From a bacterium (GTDB lineage: Bacteria; UBP15; UBA6099; DSWB01), in assembly GCA_020061125.1 (NCBI GenBank), contig JAGUYV010000448.1, forward strand, positions 1-7,898: DNA of 7,898 nt, read 5' to 3'. The position numbers and the translations under genes are program-made. Positions 1-7,452 of the stretch are shown piece by piece (the first letter of the stretch is position 1; each line of letters starts with the position of its first letter). The notes under the pieces were generated by a model. The model saw only the letters and a program-made list of their open reading frames with translations. It had not been told where the DNA came from and searched no databases.

Positions 1-123
1 AAAACTCGTTATTTGCTTTCTTGGCATTGTTTCCAAGTACCGCAAATGAGCAAAAGTGAGGAAAAACACCGGGACTGGGTGCGTTTTGCGACAGCAAAAT
101 CTTGCCTGTCCCGCGTTTTTTCC
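1..123 (+). repeat. Outer inverted repeat, left arm (REP-like unit A)
   Basis: This stretch matches the reverse complement of 2144-2266 at 118 of 123 positions with no gap (counted by eye). It holds a REP-like unit: GGGACTGGG at 71-79, a hairpin with arms TTTTGC (84-89) and GCAAAA (94-99), and CCTGTCCC at 105-112, so that GGGAC and GTCCC can form an outer stem. The right copy is bounded by TTTTTCAACAGCCCC. The left copy begins exactly where the complement of that motif would continue beyond base 1, so the left boundary is probably cut by the window. An apparent open frame here is a by-product of the repeat. Confidence 0.9.
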
Positions 124-148
124 GGCACCGGGACATTTCAACAACCCC

Positions 149-190
149 ACTGGGTCGCTTTCCGCAATGGAAAGCGTTGCCTGTACCCTG
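149..190 (+). repeat. REP-like unit B
   Basis: A diverged member of the same hairpin family as unit A. A perfect 8-base stem (CGCTTTCC 156-163, GGAAAGCG 169-176, loop GCAAT) is enclosed by GGGT (152-155) and ACCC (185-188), and TTGCCTGTACCC follows the hairpin as in the other units. It is preceded by TTTCAACAACCCC (136-148), a variant of the boundary motif. I see no inverted partner for it on the right side. Confidence 0.7.
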
Positions 191-250
191 CGTTTCTTCG
201 CCCCCTGCACCTTTTCAACAGTCCCTCTGGGGGGGCAAGCTGCACCAAAA

Positions 251-344
251 GCGCGAACGCAGTAAAAAATAGGGACTGGGAACGCGGCGGCTTTCCGCTT
301 GCCTGTACCTGTTTTTACGGCCGCCAGGCTCCTTCAATAACCCC
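251..344 (+). repeat. Second inverted repeat, left arm (REP-like unit C)
   Basis: This stretch matches the reverse complement of 2008-2102 with scattered substitutions and about one single-base gap. It contains GGGACTGGG at 272-280, a GCGG/CCGC hairpin (287-298) and GCCTGTACC at 301-309, the same layout as units A and B. It ends in TTCAATAACCCC, a decayed version of the TTTTTCAACAGCCCC boundary motif seen at the matching place on the right. Confidence 0.85.
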
Positions 345-397
345 TCGCCACCGTTTAACCAATTGACAAACAGGAAATTTCGCAGCATCATTTCTTC

Positions 398-674
398 ATG
401 GTACAAAGAGTGCGCATAGTGCTGCCGGGAATCGCGCACCATATCACCCAGCGCGGGAACATGCTGCTGCCGCAACACACGGCATATTCAATGCAAAGCA
501 ACCACAACGGCGTGGGGTGCTTCTGTACCCTGTATTTGCGTATAACAAACGGTAAGCATGGGGTTGTTGAACAATCCCAGCCCCCCTGTTTATTCCGTCG
601 CATATCTCAAAGCACTTCTCGATCGTCTGCTCAAACCGGGAAAAAGAGGGCCAAAAAAGGAAAAAGAGGAATAA
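398..674 (+). pseudogene. Internally deleted REP-associated tyrosine transposase remnant (left)
   Basis: The first 21 codons (398-460) read MVQRVRIVLPGIAHHITQRG plus N, the characteristic N-terminus of RAYT/IS200-like Y1 transposases. The expected continuation is absent. In another frame, codons up to the TAA at 672-674 read LLDRLLKPGKRGPKKEKEE, a typical basic, proline- and glycine-rich RAYT C-terminus. The central part that should hold the HUH metal-binding histidines and the catalytic tyrosine is missing, so the product cannot be active. TTGACAAAC lies just upstream (363-371), as in the right-hand remnant. Bases 546-557 in the gap repeat CAAACGGTAAGC, which also occurs by the central gene. 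The family assignment rests on the two termini only. Confidence 0.75.
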
Positions 675-691
675 TTAAGTATGGTGTCCCC
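633..691 (+). repeat. Third inverted repeat, left arm (transposase 3' end and tail)
   Basis: This stretch pairs with the reverse complement of 1651-1709 without net gaps. Both ends are perfect: 16 bases at 633-648 (AAACCGGGAAAAAGAG) and the tail TTAAGTATGGTGTCCCC ending at 691. The middle is diverged but keeps the same length. It covers the last codons and stop of the transposase remnant and a short 3' tail, so this tail is probably part of the mobile unit rather than host sequence. Confidence 0.85.
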
Positions 692-774
692 AAAACTCGA
701 GAATTCATCGTACAGAAGCGGCCAGGTCTGTGGTTATATTGCAGAGAATGTGTTGTGTGTTGCAGCGCCATTTT

Positions 775-790
775 AACGGTAAGCGTCCCT
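775..790 (+). repeat. Inner inverted repeat, left copy
   Basis: AACGGTAAGCGTCCCT is the exact reverse complement of 1567-1582. The two copies bracket the central AT-rich gene closely (its stop is at 822, its start at 1496). A 12-base version, CAAACGGTAAGC, recurs at 546-557 inside the left transposase remnant. This suggests a recurrent element end or junction rather than chance. Confidence 0.8.
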
Positions 791-821
791 GTTTTCTTTT
801 CGGTGCTTTGCTTAGGTAGTG

Positions 822-1496
822 CTACTTACAAACGATGCGACTTACCAATGCTATAGTCAATGCTACTAGAATGATTGCTAACACTGTAATTTTGAGTTCT
901 TTTATCGGTCGCCCCTTTTTTAATTGAGCACATTGATTCCTATCTGTACCCCAAAATGCCAGACTTTCATCCGATATATCATCGAATAGAACGGCAGCGT
1001 TCGTTGCATTTTGGCAAATTTGAGAGGCGAATTCATCCTTATCTTTCAGCCTCATCAAAGAAACTTGAGCCATTGGCATCTTGGATAACGCTTGAATATT
1101 ATCTTTTTCATTCTCGTTAAAGTAAATTAGAGCAATCTCATCAAAAAGCGCTCGCTTTTTAACGATTGCGAAAATGTTTTCCCATCGTATTTTAAGTCTT
1201 TTCACACGAAACGGATCAAATATGCGCCAAGTATTTCCTCTATCAACCGAAGATTCAATAATAAGATACTTCTCAGTTAATTGAGCCACGAATTTTCTGG
1301 AAATTGCACATTCGAATAAAATTGGCGAAATTATTATTTGAAAAGCTAATGTAAATACATGGAAGTCATGTATTAACAATTTGCCGTTGGCGAAATAAAT
1401 GATGATGAATAGTACAACGACCAAAGGAATCGTAAATATAAAACTCCGATAAATATTATTGAAATTGACTCTGTTGTTATAATATATTTTTGTCAT
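822..1496 (-). CDS. Unrecognised AT-rich membrane protein, probable PH-like domain
   Basis: A 224-residue protein of unknown function. Hydrophobic segments at about 18-36 and 45-63 form a likely N-terminal hairpin, and a third at about 202-220 closes the C-terminus, followed by a short basic tail. Residues about 66-165 are soluble and run in short alternating strands (for example YLIIES, KIRWENIFAIVKK, EIALIYF) ending in a DKDEFASQI helix. This resembles bacterial PH-like domains of membrane proteins, but that is inference from pattern only. The gene is far richer in A+T than its surroundings: bases 1321-1380 hold 15 G or C of 60. ATG start; the leader is purine-rich with AGAGGAAATGAGA and only a weak ribosome site. 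It is alone, intact, and framed by inverted repeats and transposase remnants, which suggests acquired cargo. Confidence 0.75.
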   Translation of the reverse strand: MTKIYYNNRVNFNNIYRSFIFTIPLVVVLFIIIYFANGKLLIHDFHVFTLAFQIIISPILFECAISRKFVAQLTEKYLIIESSVDRGNTWRIFDPFRVKRLKIRWENIFAIVKKRALFDEIALIYFNENEKDNIQALSKMPMAQVSLMRLKDKDEFASQICQNATNAAVLFDDISDESLAFWGTDRNQCAQLKKGRPIKELKITVLAIILVALTIALVSRIVCK

Positions 1497-1566
1497 CGCT
1501 GTCTCATTTCCTCTATCTCATCTCGCGTCTCTCGTCTTCTGTCACTTGTGCCTTGGCTAGATAAAT

Positions 1567-1582
1567 AGGGACGCTTACCGTT
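1567..1582 (-). repeat. Inner inverted repeat, right copy
   Basis: AGGGACGCTTACCGTT is the exact reverse complement of 775-790. On the minus strand the match to the 546-557 copy (CAAACGGTAAGC) extends through base 1584. It lies about 70 bases upstream of the start of the central membrane-protein gene. Confidence 0.8.
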
Positions 1583-1650
1583 TGATTTGCGCGAATTCAG
1601 CAAACAGAAGCAGCCTGCGCTGTGGTTGCGTTTTAGTGATTGGTAGTTTG

Positions 1651-1709
1651 GGGGACACCATACTTAATTATGCTTCCCTTTTCCCTTTTGGGTCTCTTTT
1701 TCCCGGTTT
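1651..1709 (-). repeat. Third inverted repeat, right arm (transposase 3' end and tail)
   Basis: Reverse complement partner of 633-691. The perfect segments are 1651-1671 and 1694-1709. It contains the stop codon and last codons of the right-hand transposase remnant and the same GGGGACACCATACTTAA tail. Confidence 0.85.
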
Positions 1710-1756
1710 ATGCGGTGCGGCCGACAGGGCGCTATGGTTCTGGCTGTTCCTGGCAT
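1668..1756 (-). pseudogene. Miniature REP-associated tyrosine transposase remnant (right)
   Basis: Read on the minus strand from 1756, the codons give MPGTARTIAPCRPHRI, closely resembling the MPRTAR-type N-terminus of RAYT transposases. After a frame change near 1709 they give KPGKRDPKGKREA and a TAA stop at 1670-1668, a RAYT-type C-terminus matching the left remnant. Only 89 bases remain, so almost the whole coding region, including the HUH histidines and catalytic tyrosine, has been deleted with both ends kept. That is the pattern of a miniature non-autonomous derivative. A near-consensus promoter stands directly upstream. It points toward the left remnant with the AT-rich gene between them. 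Confidence 0.7.
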
Positions 1757-1766
1757 AGCTTGCTTT

Positions 1767-1796
1767 ATTAAATCATACGATTGCTCCGTTTGTCAA
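1767..1796 (-). promoter_or_regulatory. Promoter of the right transposase remnant
   Basis: On the minus strand, TTGACA (1796-1791) is followed after 18 bases by TTTAAT (1772-1767), a good sigma70 match just upstream of the remnant ATG at 1756. The left remnant keeps the same TTGACAAAC start at 363-371, but its -10 (CATCAT at 386-391) is poor. Confidence 0.55.
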
Positions 1797-1848
1797 TATT
1801 TAAGGCGGGCGCCGGGTCCGCGGCATTACCGTGGGGTTGGCGAAAACC

Positions 1849-1888
1849 AGGGTACAGGCGCCGCTGAAAAACGGCGGTTCCGGTCCCG
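1849..1888 (-). repeat. REP-like unit E
   Basis: This has the same layout as the other units, in minus orientation: GGGTACAGG (1850-1858), hairpin arms CGCCG (1859-1863) and CGGCG (1872-1876) with an A-rich loop, then CCGGTCCC (1880-1887). A further 6-base stem, CAAGGG (1901-1906) with CCCTTG (1915-1920), lies just beside it. Confidence 0.6.
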
Positions 1889-1951
1889 ATGCTGCTCATT
1901 CAAGGGAAAAACCGCCCTTGCCCAAAAGCCGGCCCTTGACATCCTGTCCCC

Positions 1952-1980
1952 TGGATTCCGGCTCTCCGGCCGGAATGACG
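1952..1980. repeat. Dispersed GGATTCC...GGAATGACG hairpin repeat
   Basis: ATTCCGGC (1955-1962) and GCCGGAAT (1969-1976) form a perfect 8-base stem over a 6-base loop, flanked by TGG and GACG. The layout is that of the ATTCC(N)GGAAT family of dispersed repeats common in proteobacteria, of which neisserial dRS3 is the named example. It is not part of the nested palindrome and seems to be a separate insertion. Confidence 0.6.
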
Positions 1981-2007
1981 GCCCAAGTGAGCGGTATTGT
2001 TCGCAGT

Positions 2008-2102
2008 GGGGCTGTTGAAAAAGCCTTGCGGCCGTAAAAAGCAGGTACAGGCACGCGGAAAAACACCGCGTTCCCAGTCCCTGTTTTTTACTGCGTTCGC
2101 GC
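2008..2102 (-). repeat. Second inverted repeat, right arm (REP-like unit D)
   Basis: Reverse complement partner of 251-344. It starts with GGGGCTGTTGAAAAA (2008-2022) and contains GGTACAGGC (2044-2052), a CGCGG/CCGCG hairpin (2054-2058 with 2066-2070) and CCCAGTCCC (2073-2081). It is less decayed than the left copy at the boundary motif. Confidence 0.85.
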
Positions 2103-2143
2103 TTGTGGTTCAGCTTGTTGGGTTTTTCAACAGCCCCGCAGTG

Positions 2144-2266
2144 GGAAAAAACGCGGGACAGGCAAGGTTTTGCTGTCGCAAAACGCACCCAGTCCCGGTG
2201 TTTTTCCTCACTTTTGCTCATTTCCGGCACTTGGAAACAATGTGAAGAAAGCAAATAACGAGTTTT
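2144..2266 (-). repeat. Outer inverted repeat, right arm (REP-like unit A copy)
   Basis: Reverse complement of 1-123 with five mismatches and no gaps. It carries the same GGGAC/GTCCC outer stem and TTTTGC hairpin. It lies between two copies of TTTTTCAACAGCCCCGCAGT (starting at 2123 and 2263), which suggests that these motifs delimit one mobile or amplified unit. Confidence 0.9.
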
Positions 2267-2277
2267 TCAACAGCCCC
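2263..2277. repeat. Element-boundary motif TTTTTCAACAGCCCC
   Basis: Exact copies lie at 2263-2277 and 2123-2137, and the exact reverse complement at 2008-2022. Variants lie at 136-148, 212-225 and 332-344 (TTTCAACAACCCC, TTTTCAACAGTCCC, CTTCAATAACCCC). All sit at edges of the REP-like units, and this one closes the repeat-rich island on the right. Confidence 0.7.
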
Positions 2278-2538: not shown

Positions 2539-2602
2539 AGGCCTTTGAGGCGGGTATCACTGTAGGGAATATGGTATTCTATGCCCTTTTCACGGGCGCT
2601 GA

Positions 2603-2611
2603 AGGAGGTGA
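2603..2611 (+). promoter_or_regulatory. Ribosome binding site fixing the receiver start
   Basis: AGGAGGTGA lies eight bases before the ATG at 2620. It selects that start over the in-frame ATG at 2581, which has no ribosome site and would put the Shine-Dalgarno sequence inside the coding region. Confidence 0.85.
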
Positions 2612-2619
2612 CACACACG

Positions 2620-3039
2620 ATGCAGGCAACTGTTGAAAAGAGGATTAACCGCAAGCAGAAAGTCATCCTGGTCATCGAAGACGACAGGGACATGAACGAT
2701 CTGGTGTGCGACGCCCTGGACAGCGCGGGGTATCAGACACTGTCCGCATTCGACGGGGTGGAGGGGCTGCGGCTGGGCGAACAGGCGCACCCGGATGTGA
2801 TTCTGCTTGACATCATATTGCCGGACGCGGATGGGGTGGATCTGTGCCGCGACCTGCGCAGGAACGAGACCACGCGTCTCATTCCCATCATCATGCTCAC
2901 GGGCAGGCAGGACCTGTCCACCAAGCTCTCGTCCTACATTGCGGGGGCCAAGCGGTACATCACCAAGCCGTTCCAGATTGACCAGTTGATTGAGGAAGTG
3001 GACAAGACCCTGATTCAGAAGCAAATCGCTGCGGACTGA
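2620..3039 (+). CDS. Stand-alone response-regulator receiver protein
   Basis: A 139-residue single-domain CheY-like receiver. Phosphotransfer from a histidine kinase to an aspartate would switch its surface. After about 13 basic N-terminal residues the fold begins at VILVIEDD, with the acidic metal-binding pair at D21-D22. The phospho-accepting aspartate is D64 (ILLDI), the switch threonine T94 (MLTGR) and the conserved lysine K116 (TKPF), so all catalytic positions are kept. The usual GADDY loop before TKPF reads GAKRY, an unusual basic change. There is no output domain, so it must act by protein contact or as a phosphorelay step. No kinase gene adjoins it, and it converges on the diaphorase operon. 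The N-terminal stretch is a little longer than in minimal receivers. Confidence 0.92.
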   Translation: MQATVEKRINRKQKVILVIEDDRDMNDLVCDALDSAGYQTLSAFDGVEGLRLGEQAHPDVILLDIILPDADGVDLCRDLRRNETTRLIPIIMLTGRQDLSTKLSSYIAGAKRYITKPFQIDQLIEEVDKTLIQKQIAAD

Positions 3040-3051
3040 CGCGCGCGAACA

Positions 3052-3069
3052 GCCGGGCGCGCGCCCGGC
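3052..3069. terminator. Perfect GC palindrome between convergent genes
   Basis: GCCGGGCGC followed directly by GCGCCCGGC makes an 18-base perfect palindrome in the 113-base gap between the receiver gene (stop 3039) and the diaphorase operon (stop 3153). The position suits a bidirectional terminator, but no T-run follows on either strand, so it may act with Rho, mainly stabilise 3' ends, or be something else. Confidence 0.4.
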
Positions 3070-3152
3070 CGGAAGCCGAACCGCACCGCGGCCTTGTTTC
3101 CCTTTGCCGATCTTTCCGGATACTTCCCCTATAAGCAACCCGGTTCAGCGTG

Positions 3153-3848
3153 TCACTGCCATCCGTAGCGGCTGCACTTGAAGCCTTCGCCCAGGCGGCA
3201 CATCACGCACATGGCTTCCTGTGCGCCGGAGGCCATGGAAAGCTGGGATTCGCAGCCGCCGCACAGGTGCGCCTCGCCGGGCTTCATGGAGCCTTCGCAC
3301 GGCACGATGGTCATGGGACAGGTGTCCACGCACGAGTTGCATTCCTTGCAGTAGGCCGGGCGGTCGCCGAAGGGGAACCCGACGCGGCGCTCTGCGCCGC
3401 GGCCCACGAACCCGATGGCGCGCGCCTGCCACATGTCCGAGCAGATGCGCACGCACCGGCCGCACAGGATGCAGTCGTCGTTGCGGAACGGATACCGCAC
3501 TTCCTTGACCCCGCAGCGCACGGCCATGTCCTGGACCGCGCGTGAGTTGGGCGCCTGCGCCACCAGAAGCTCGGCGATGTTGCGCCGCAGATGCCTGATG
3601 CGCTCGGTGTTGGTGCGGATGACCATGCCTTCCTGCACATCGAGGGTGCAGGAGGTGGTGATCCGGGAGCGGCCGTCCACGATGTTTTCCACGATGCACA
3701 GGCGGCACGCGCCGATGTCCGTCATGTTGGGGATGTGGCACAGGTGCGGGATGCAGATGCCGTATTCGATGGCCGCATCCAGAACCGTGGTGCCCTTGGG
3801 CGCGCGCGTAGTCGCCCCGTCTATCGTCAGCGTCACAATTTTTTTCAT
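3153..3848 (-). CDS. Short NuoG-like ferredoxin subunit of an NAD-linked hydrogenase/formate dehydrogenase
   Basis: A 231-residue electron-transfer subunit equivalent to the N-terminal part of NuoG, HndD/HydA or HoxU. A plant-type [2Fe-2S] domain (1-80) has C37, C48, C51 and C67. The linker, where the family normally has a His-Cys3 [4Fe-4S] site, reads LLVAQAPNSRAVQDMAVRCG and keeps only C112, so that cluster is apparently lost. Two [4Fe-4S] motifs follow: C126, C129, C132, C136 and C167, C170, C173, C177. The last 40 residues add C196, C199, C214, C217 and C225, a possible further metal site that I do not recognise. No H-cluster or molybdopterin domain follows. It is the last gene of the operon, 17 bases after the flavoprotein gene. 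ATG at 3848 with GAGGTG just upstream was preferred to a longer frame that overlaps the preceding gene. Confidence 0.85.
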   Translation of the reverse strand: MKKIVTLTIDGATTRAPKGTTVLDAAIEYGICIPHLCHIPNMTDIGACRLCIVENIVDGRSRITTSCTLDVQEGMVIRTNTERIRHLRRNIAELLVAQAPNSRAVQDMAVRCGVKEVRYPFRNDDCILCGRCVRICSDMWQARAIGFVGRGAERRVGFPFGDRPAYCKECNSCVDTCPMTIVPCEGSMKPGEAHLCGGCESQLSMASGAQEAMCVMCRLGEGFKCSRYGWQ

Positions 3849-3865
3849 GCCGCACCTCAATGGGG

Positions 3866-5746
<1,881 letters not shown>

Positions 5747-6377
5747 AGGCGGCGGCCTCCTTTCGTGCGGATGCTTTCACGGGCGTGCGCTTCTTGCCGG
5801 GGGCCTGTTTTTCCTGCCCGCCGGCCTTGAGGATGAGCGCCTTGAGCTTGGCCGGGGTCACATGGTCGTGGTATTCTCCGTTCAGCACCACAACCGGCCC
5901 AAGGGCGCATGCGCCCAGGCAGTTGACCTGTTCGAGGGTGAACAGCCCGTCCGCCGTGGTTTCGCCCGGGCCGATGCCGAGCAGGCCGTGGATCTGGCTG
6001 GAGAGCAGATTGGATCCGCGCACATGGCACGCGGTGCCCGCGCAGATGGTGATCACATTTTTGCCCCGCGGTTTCAAAGACAGCGCTTTGTAGAAATTCG
6101 CGGCGCGGTACACCTCGATTTCGGGAACGCCCAGTTCCCGTGAGATGATTTTCATATCCTCTGTGCTGACATAACCGTTGCTCTCCTGGACATCCAGAAG
6201 CGTCTCAATGAGCATGTGCGGCTGGCTGCGCCTGCCCTTGAGGATGGGTTCGAGCGTGAGTGCAGACATTGCTCCCCTCCCGTGCTCTTGGCGGAATCGC
6301 GGCGCGGCGCCTGATCGCGGCCCGCGCGGCGTGCCTCGTATACACCATTGTCAAGCACGCCCGCGGTCCGGTAAATA

Positions 6378-6461
6378 CCCATAAATTGCCTATAATCAGC
6401 CTATTAACAATGTGTATTTACATTCACGCAATACACCTATATAATGCCTATAAACAATAGG
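6378..6461. promoter_or_regulatory. CCTAT repeats phased at 11 bases, probable operator
   Basis: CCTAT occurs at 6389-6393, 6400-6404, 6436-6440 and 6447-6451. Within each pair the spacing is exactly 11 bases, and the two pairs are 47 bases apart. A variant CCCAT at 6378 continues the 11-base phase. The 24-base blocks 6388-6411 and 6435-6458 agree at 18 positions. The last copy also forms a dyad, CCTAT-AAACA-ATAGG (6447-6461). GTAAATAC (6371-6378) and GTATTTAC (6414-6421) form another dyad. Repeats at one helical turn are typical of cooperative regulator binding. The right pair overlaps the -10 and start site of the regulator gene, which would suit repression. Confidence 0.6.
6417..6445 (+). 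promoter_or_regulatory. Sigma70-type promoter of the LuxR-type regulator
   Basis: TTTACA (6417-6422), a 17-base spacer and a consensus TATAAT (6440-6445) predict a start near 6452, about 20 bases before the ATG at 6472. The promoter lies within the CCTAT repeat array. I find no equally good promoter for the divergent operon. TTGACA on the minus strand at 6354-6349 has no -10 at a workable distance. Confidence 0.75.
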
Positions 6462-6471
6462 GAGTCATGCG

Positions 6472-7452
6472 ATGAACAGACCCGGAAATCCCGCGCGGCC
6501 CTGGGGCGTTCCCCCGCACATGGACACGGACCTGCGACTGCCCCTGCCCCTGCCGGAAAACCTCGAACGAGATCCGCAAAAGCTCGAAGTGGCGCTCCTC
6601 GAGCGCATCAAGGAACTCAACTGCATGTACGGCATGGCCATTCTGGCCGAGCGCTATTCCGATTCCATCGAGGATTTTCTGCAAAGCCTCGTGAACATCC
6701 TGCCACCATCGTGGCAGTACCCGGACATCACCTGCGCGCGCATCATGTTCCGGGGGCAGACCTACAAGAGCCGCGATTTCCGGGCCTCACGGTGGCGGCA
6801 GTCCGCGCGCATCGCCATGTACGGAGAGCACGCGGGCGAGGTCGAGGTGTTCTACAAGCAGGAGCGGCCCGCGCATGACGAAGGCCCGTTTCTCAAGGAA
6901 GAACGCCTGCTTCTTGACGCCGTGGCCGAACAGATAGGCAAGATCGCCGCGCGCATCGCCTCGGAACGGGAACTGCGCGAACTGAACCGGCAGCTCACGG
7001 TCGAGCGCGAGGCTCTGCACGAAGCCAACCTGGCCCTGCGCGCCATCATGGCCCGCATCGAGGAGGAGAAGCTCGACATCAGCCGCAGCATTCAGGCCAA
7101 TGTGGACAAGGCCATCATGCCCGTGCTCCACGCCATGGCCCTGGAACTGCCCGAGGGGAGCAGGAAATATGTGGACATTCTGCGCTCCAGCCTCGTGGAA
7201 ATCACCTCGCCGTTCATCAACCGGCTGTCCCGCGAAGTGCTCTCGCTCACGCCCACGGAAATCCGCATCTGCGACCTCATCCGCGGCGGCATGCGCACCA
7301 AGGAAATCGCCCAAATTCAGGGCATCTCCGAAGCCACGGTGAACCGGCACCGCGAGCACATCCGCCGCAAGCTCGGCCTCGTGAACCGGGAGGTGAACCT
7401 GGCCGCGTTCCTGCAATCCGGGGAATGGAGCCGCCAGGCGCCGCGTCTCTGA
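6472..7452 (+). CDS. LuxR-type transcriptional regulator with GAF-like sensor and coiled coil
   Basis: A 326-residue DNA-binding regulator. Residues about 35-160 (from LLERIKELNCMYGMAIL through the EEERLLLDAVAEQIG-like helix) look like a GAF-type sensory domain: a start helix, a short-strand core with FRGQTYKSRDF and IAMYGEHAGEVEVFY, and a closing helix. Residues about 162-202 are a charged heptad-like helix, a likely dimer or signalling coiled coil. Residues 259-314 are a LuxR/FixJ helix-turn-helix with the typical LTPTEIRICDLI, TKEIAQIQGISEATVNRHRE and IRRKLGL. No receiver domain is present, so input is probably a ligand, redox state or partner protein. C51 and C88 are possible sensor residues. 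The start at 6472 has GGGAG eight bases upstream. It is divergent from the diaphorase operon and a plausible regulator of it. Confidence 0.85.
   Translation: MNRPGNPARPWGVPPHMDTDLRLPLPLPENLERDPQKLEVALLERIKELNCMYGMAILAERYSDSIEDFLQSLVNILPPSWQYPDITCARIMFRGQTYKSRDFRASRWRQSARIAMYGEHAGEVEVFYKQERPAHDEGPFLKEERLLLDAVAEQIGKIAARIASERELRELNRQLTVEREALHEANLALRAIMARIEEEKLDISRSIQANVDKAIMPVLHAMALELPEGSRKYVDILRSSLVEITSPFINRLSREVLSLTPTEIRICDLIRGGMRTKEIAQIQGISEATVNRHREHIRRKLGLVNREVNLAAFLQSGEWSRQAPRL

Follow-up and report, generated by a model that had tools for sequence, protein, structure and literature searches.

A foreign-looking gene between the facing ends of deleted transposase elements: a possible passenger unit in a UBP15 bacterium

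What kind of history leaves a single AT-rich gene at the centre of a nested palindrome of 2.27 kb? The question is raised by contig JAGUYV010000448.1 (C294 in the following) of assembly GCA_020061125.1, from a bacterium of the GTDB lineage UBP15, UBA6099, DSWB01. The window analysed here is this entire contig of 7,898 nucleotides, one of 513 contigs of a metagenome-assembled genome (MAG). The reading put forward, to which we assign a probability of about 0.45, is that the gene is a passenger between two elements of the terminal-inverted-repeat tyrosine transposase (TIRYT) type, known as TIRtrons, which were independently acquired and independently deleted and lie in opposite orientation with arrays of hairpin repeats outside them, and that the segment between their facing termini is a mobile unit. 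The structural part of this reading is firm, and the mechanism of mobility is what we infer from it. Both this genome and at least one unrelated bacterium have further examples of the layout with other cargo, several of them resembling anti-virus defence genes, which points to a way of moving single genes that has drawn little notice.

Four inverted-repeat pairs in strict nested order had been described in a sequence-only reading of this DNA, and an inverted-repeat search bore them out with slightly wider limits. The outermost pair spans 1-150 and 2117-2266 at 90% identity (118 of 123 bases, or 95.9%, in the sub-interval 1-123/2144-2266). It is followed inwards by 236-316/2037-2117 (90%), extended by 312-344/2008-2040 to give 236-344/2008-2117 together, by 633-697/1645-1709 (85%) and by 765-794/1563-1592 (83%), and an extra, weaker pair lies at 504-557/1573-1626 (76%). 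A comparison of bases 1-2290 with their reverse complement gives 186 exact shared 14-mers; 200 dinucleotide shuffles averaged 0.38 and never exceeded 6, so the palindrome is far above chance. Its left side is cut off by the assembly, because the contig begins within the outer repeat. In the centre, at 822-1496 on the minus strand, lies the cargo gene for a predicted membrane protein of 224 residues. With 34% GC, compared to 63% elsewhere on the contig, it looks foreign. No relatives of the protein were found by Pfam, by PADLOC, in the genome-contig or viral-contig collections or in its own genome, and its predicted structure (mean per-residue confidence, pLDDT, 44) was too poor for use.

By sequence comparison, both arms are deletion derivatives of a transposase gene that is intact on contig C460 of the same genome. 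Its product of 222 residues matches Y1_Tnp with 46.9 bits and is a Y1 transposase with an HUH motif (H60-I-H62, within NHIHL) and a catalytic tyrosine (Y119, within RYVELNPVRA); about 100 residues lie beyond the Y1 domain, where members of TnpAY1 subclass 2.1 have a helix-turn-helix extension, and Pfam detected no helix-turn-helix there. The gene is situated between inverted terminal inverted repeats (TIRs) of the GGGGWSAS type (GGGGACAC here), not GTAG hairpins, with GGGGACACCATACTTAATTA upstream and its inverted counterpart TAATTAAGTATGGTGTCACC downstream, and the inverted ends read GGGGACACC...GGTGTCCCC. Such genes were named TIRYT, their elements TIRtrons and their TIR motif GGGGWSAS by Di Nocera et al. 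2013 (PMC3733652), and most TIRYT were placed in TnpAY1 subclass 2.1 (PMC6006769).

The cargo unit of the window is exactly bounded by two facing TIRYT termini. The terminus T has the sequence AATTAAGTATGGTGTCCCC, and a T site was defined by at most 2 mismatches in its 17-base core. T+ at 673-691 on the plus strand forms the left boundary, and T- at 1651-1669 on the minus strand forms the right one. T does not fold (z=+1.3) and occurs at 23 sites in this genome, compared to at most one per relative. The 3' codons of TIRYT adjoin T+ at C294, C70, C424 and C460 and, by reading, also at loci L326, L328 and L334. Tandem decayed copies of the terminus were seen at cargo edges at L119 1270-1330 (GTGTCCCCAAAACTCC) and L122 10355-10401 (GGAATTATGGGGACA), as if one end had been reused. 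A phage origin of T was rejected, with a single occurrence among 2.9 million viral contigs, and a literature text search for the terminus sequence gave nothing relevant among the matches listed.

The two arms have lost the interior of the transposase gene in different ways. On the plus strand of the left arm, a 5' coding remnant at 398-467 (MVQRVRIVLPGIAHHITQRGN-), of which 435-467 matches the 5' part of the C460 gene and which is contiguous with 469-698 in C70 and C424, is followed by a fragment of another repeat, unit-4, in place of the interior (469-556) and by the 3' coding end with the right terminus (593-698). On the minus strand of the right arm, the promoter region and start (1705-1804) are fused directly to the 3' coding end (1645-1724) by an internal deletion unlike that of the left arm. 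Further outside lie the inner repeat M2 (236-344, plus; 2008-2117, minus) and the outer repeat M1 (1-150, plus; 2117-2290, minus), both characterised by inverted-repeat, dispersal, nearest-copy and folding analyses. Both fold as clear hairpins (z -2.8 to -6.3) and lack a GTAG or GTGG foot, the only GTGG/CCAC occurrences being outside the stems. No known RNA families were matched in the window. Repeat M1b (149-232, plus), seen by genome matches, is present only in the left arm, and an unrelated repeat of the CCGGCTCTCCGGCCGGAATGACG type (1881-2000, plus) only in the right one. Repeats similar to the latter occur in other genomes, some of them from other families.

Matches to bases 1-2290 were found at 121 places of this genome, and all four pairs are made up of repeats that are dispersed through it. 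In a nearest-copy test, the window copies of each pair were compared with all recovered copies covering at least 60% of the unit (15 for M1 and 29 for M2). In none of the four pairs were the arms each other's nearest copies; the closest copies lay on other contigs. For the left TIRYT end, identity is 98.5% with C70 and C424 and 84.6% with the mirror arm; for the left unit-4, it is 94.6% with C302 and 72% with the mirror arm. The mirror partners of M1 and M2 are no closer than many other genomic copies. The left arm recurs as a single block on C70 (window 55-698, 88%) and C424 (258-698, 86%), and M1 and M2 copies frequently lie side by side. This anatomy and the nearest-copy result make it very probable that the arms are dispersed repeats derived from TIRYT by deletion and not sister copies. 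Nested order arises automatically from two TIRYT remnants in opposite orientation. The idea that the outer pair had been homogenised lost its support, because M1 is about equally similar genome-wide (for example, 100% over 91 bases to C52). Arms that are merely dispersed repeats and do not occur in pairs had been named beforehand as a point that would speak against a unit; dispersed they are, and yet they co-occur as units.

Seven facing pairs, with T+ followed by T- within 0.4-2.5 kb, were found in this genome, on C294 (the window), C382, C460, C70, C424, C409 and C291. GC content inside them is 0.32-0.54 compared to 0.53-0.61 in the flanks; five of the seven are clearly AT-rich (0.32-0.40), and the enclosed DNA differs each time. 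The cargo is an AT-rich open reading frame (ORF) for 323 residues at C424, a 544-residue protein weakly matching SNase at C70 and a 261-residue protein with a Gmx_para_CXXCG match below threshold at C460. PADLOC gave no match for the three cargo proteins tested from this genome, and no defence role is therefore claimed for the window gene. C302 and C1 share this left end and likewise carry an AT-rich gene, with unit-4 in place of the second T.

Inverted element ends bounding passenger genes without a transposase were found both here and in the deltaproteobacterial genome RBG_13_61_14, the sole comparison genome rich in T sites. There, the passenger layout dominates, with 68 T sites and 11 facing units, of which nine are AT-rich. 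Ordinary host genes, for example ABC-transporter and aspS-like ones, lie next to units or on both sides of them. The cargo comprises a SIR2 protein, GmrSD_N + FRG (PADLOC: NsnA, PDC-S15), a methyltransferase and small ORFs, and an AIPR/AbiU-like gene adjoins a single T. Single T sites elsewhere adjoin an MvaI/BcnI-type restriction gene and a DUF4276 gene. Across the 18 units of the two genomes, cargo length is 0.4-2.8 kb, and AT-rich DNA lies inside 14 of the 18 facing pairs compared to two of 12 in other orientations (Fisher p=0.002, both genomes pooled). Among the matches listed, T- and T+ neighbours were within 131 bases in 46 of 54 cases, i.e., short doublets. These served as a control, with a GC drop in 1/76 (1%) and no AT-rich neighbours, compared to a drop of more than 0.1 on the GGTGTCCCC side at 17/91 other T sites (19%, p=0.0002; again among the matches listed). 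An interpretation of the T-T+ 'arrays' in other genomes as cassette arrays was rejected, as these are mostly doublets between ordinary genes.

The sequence-only reading had also offered a mobile unit with derived transposase copies as its arms. Its anatomical part stands, since both arms derive from the TIRYT intact at C460 and the layout recurs with other cargo; its mobility is a matter of interpretation. The T-bounded segment would be, or would once have been, a non-autonomous mobile unit with ends recognised in trans by a TIRYT like the intact C460 copy. Excision and insertion would proceed as single-stranded DNA and without target duplication, as with HUH enzymes of the IS200/IS605 type, and no target duplications were found at the units, in keeping with HUH transposition. 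Either the inner ends would have to serve the enzyme, or a circle with a T-T+ joint, opened between the two, would be the form in which the unit travels; as a conjecture, the short T-T+ doublets would fit such a joint. Judged by sequence, the chances that the T-bounded segment is a mobile passenger unit appear evenly balanced, and the role of TIRYT as its motor is proposed more tentatively. In a wider and similarly tentative view, TIRYT-type HUH transposases may mobilise small non-autonomous cassettes with facing T and in this way shuffle chromosomal genes in several phyla. Alongside integrons, they would spread AT-rich orphan genes and genes for anti-phage defence, each time only one or two of them.

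Several observations weigh against a mobile passenger unit. The T ends of a canonical TIRtron have the reverse orientation (T- TIRYT T+), which leaves the cargo outside the element, and the enzyme would have to make use of the inner ends. No empty site was found: the left flank of the window is missing, 118 T loci gave no informative overlap, and the one family search gave G041 alone. Cargo can also be host-like or of another kind, with a carboxylesterase in the L326 unit and, at C291, an IS4-like transposase that is not AT-rich, and in the mixed remaining genomes just two of 17 facing pairs were AT-rich among the matches listed. T was found in more than 118 stretches from many phyla, and this sample was not random. 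At C291 (L292 1488-2911, G000:C291), the TIR CATAAGCGTTAACTTAA of the IS4-like element adjoins GGTGTCCC on both sides, exactly between two facing T ends.

These points leave a real, though less than even, chance that the gene is a bystander, an AT-rich acquisition by horizontal transfer in a tolerant spot where TIRtrons, hairpins resembling repetitive extragenic palindromic (REP) sequences and unit-4 landed singly and nothing moves as a unit. Arms made of dispersed repeats inserted at different times fit this explanation, as do the additional unrelated repeats in the right arm and beside the RBG_13_61_14 units and the host-like GC content inside most facing pairs of other genomes. Against it speak the T ends at both edges of AT-rich DNA in those 14 of 18 units from two unrelated genomes, the doublets, which do not lie beside AT-rich DNA, and the GC step in RBG_13_61_14, which falls at T itself (0.54 to 0.40).

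An integron-like cassette, in which unit-4 would be an attC-like site and the gene plus unit-4 the cassette, is unlikely. Unit-4 is a repeat of about 115 bp, with convincing copies in this genome only among the 31 searched, and it is found after an AT-rich gene, each time in the same orientation, at C302, C1, C203 and in the window, as a cassette site might be. In the window, it is present, besides the left-arm fragment, as a truncated copy without its outer TIR 3' of the cargo gene (698-796, minus) and as a truncated copy of the same orientation 5' of it (1563-1642, minus); others lie at L121 2443-2558, L123 704-788 and 1366-1460 and L120 1772-1849. But none of the nine copies has the GTTRRRY/RYYYAAC core pair, no integron integrase scored above its cut-off, and the best-preserved copy carries its own terminal inverted repeats, GGGACGCTTACC...GGTAAGTGTCCC (GGGACGCTTACC/GGTAAGYGTCCC). 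An attC identity was rejected on the lack of core sites and of a qualifying integrase.

A repeat-mediated misjoin in so fragmented a MAG is still less likely: several contigs end within the outer repeat, where the window also starts, but the arms are 4-28% divergent and their deletions are not the same, and the layout is present on six other contigs and in the independent assembly of RBG_13_61_14. Least probable is an inverted duplication of one unit of REP-associated tyrosine transposase (RAYT) and REPs, as first proposed, or a snap-back palindrome, with the gene caught between the copies, for the strict nested order centred on the gene is given by two opposed elements of one family anyway, and the nearest-copy test for all four pairs, the different internal deletions and the restriction of M1b and of the 1881-2000 repeat to one arm rule out a simple duplication.

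To the right of the palindrome, 2581-7452 contains ordinary host genes, including a response-regulator-like gene, a cluster with a NuoF/HydB-like protein of 626 residues and ferredoxin-type genes, and a LuxR-type regulator.

RAYT and TIRYT enzymes are common, and the usual view is that they move either nothing or just tiny repeats. Should genes travel with their termini as well, this would provide a vector for the many unexplained AT-rich orphan and defence genes that lie among ordinary host genes, a 19-base sequence would be enough to find such units, and TIRYT would be predicted to cut and rejoin cargo strands bearing T. Among known systems, TIRtrons share the Y1 HUH transposase with its catalytic tyrosine, the inverted, non-hairpin GGGGWSAS TIRs and the dispersed single and paired TIR copies. 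They were published as repeat families around a transposase gene, whereas here facing TIRs bound cargo outside the transposase unit; the word 'passenger' is absent from the text of the TIRtron paper (PMC3733652). TIRtrons as such are already published, and no description of facing-T passenger units was found in searches of the open-access literature (subscription papers were not searched).

In REPtrons and REPINs, with RAYT and GTAG-tagged REPs, one Y1 transposase likewise feeds dispersed, often doubled non-autonomous repeats, and the M1 and M2 hairpins cluster as in bacterial interspersed mosaic elements (BIMEs); unlike in these systems, T is not a hairpin, and M1 and M2 have no GTAG foot. 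Mobile insertion cassettes (MICs) consist of IS4-family ends around a passenger gene, with the transposase acting in trans. They are similar in that inverted transposable-element ends enclose passenger genes with no transposase inside, but the ends here come from an HUH and not a DDE element, and no target duplication was seen. Composite transposons, finally, likewise hold cargo between paired, inverted copies of the same element, as in the window and at C382, whereas most units described here have a transposase remnant on one side only and a bare T on the other.

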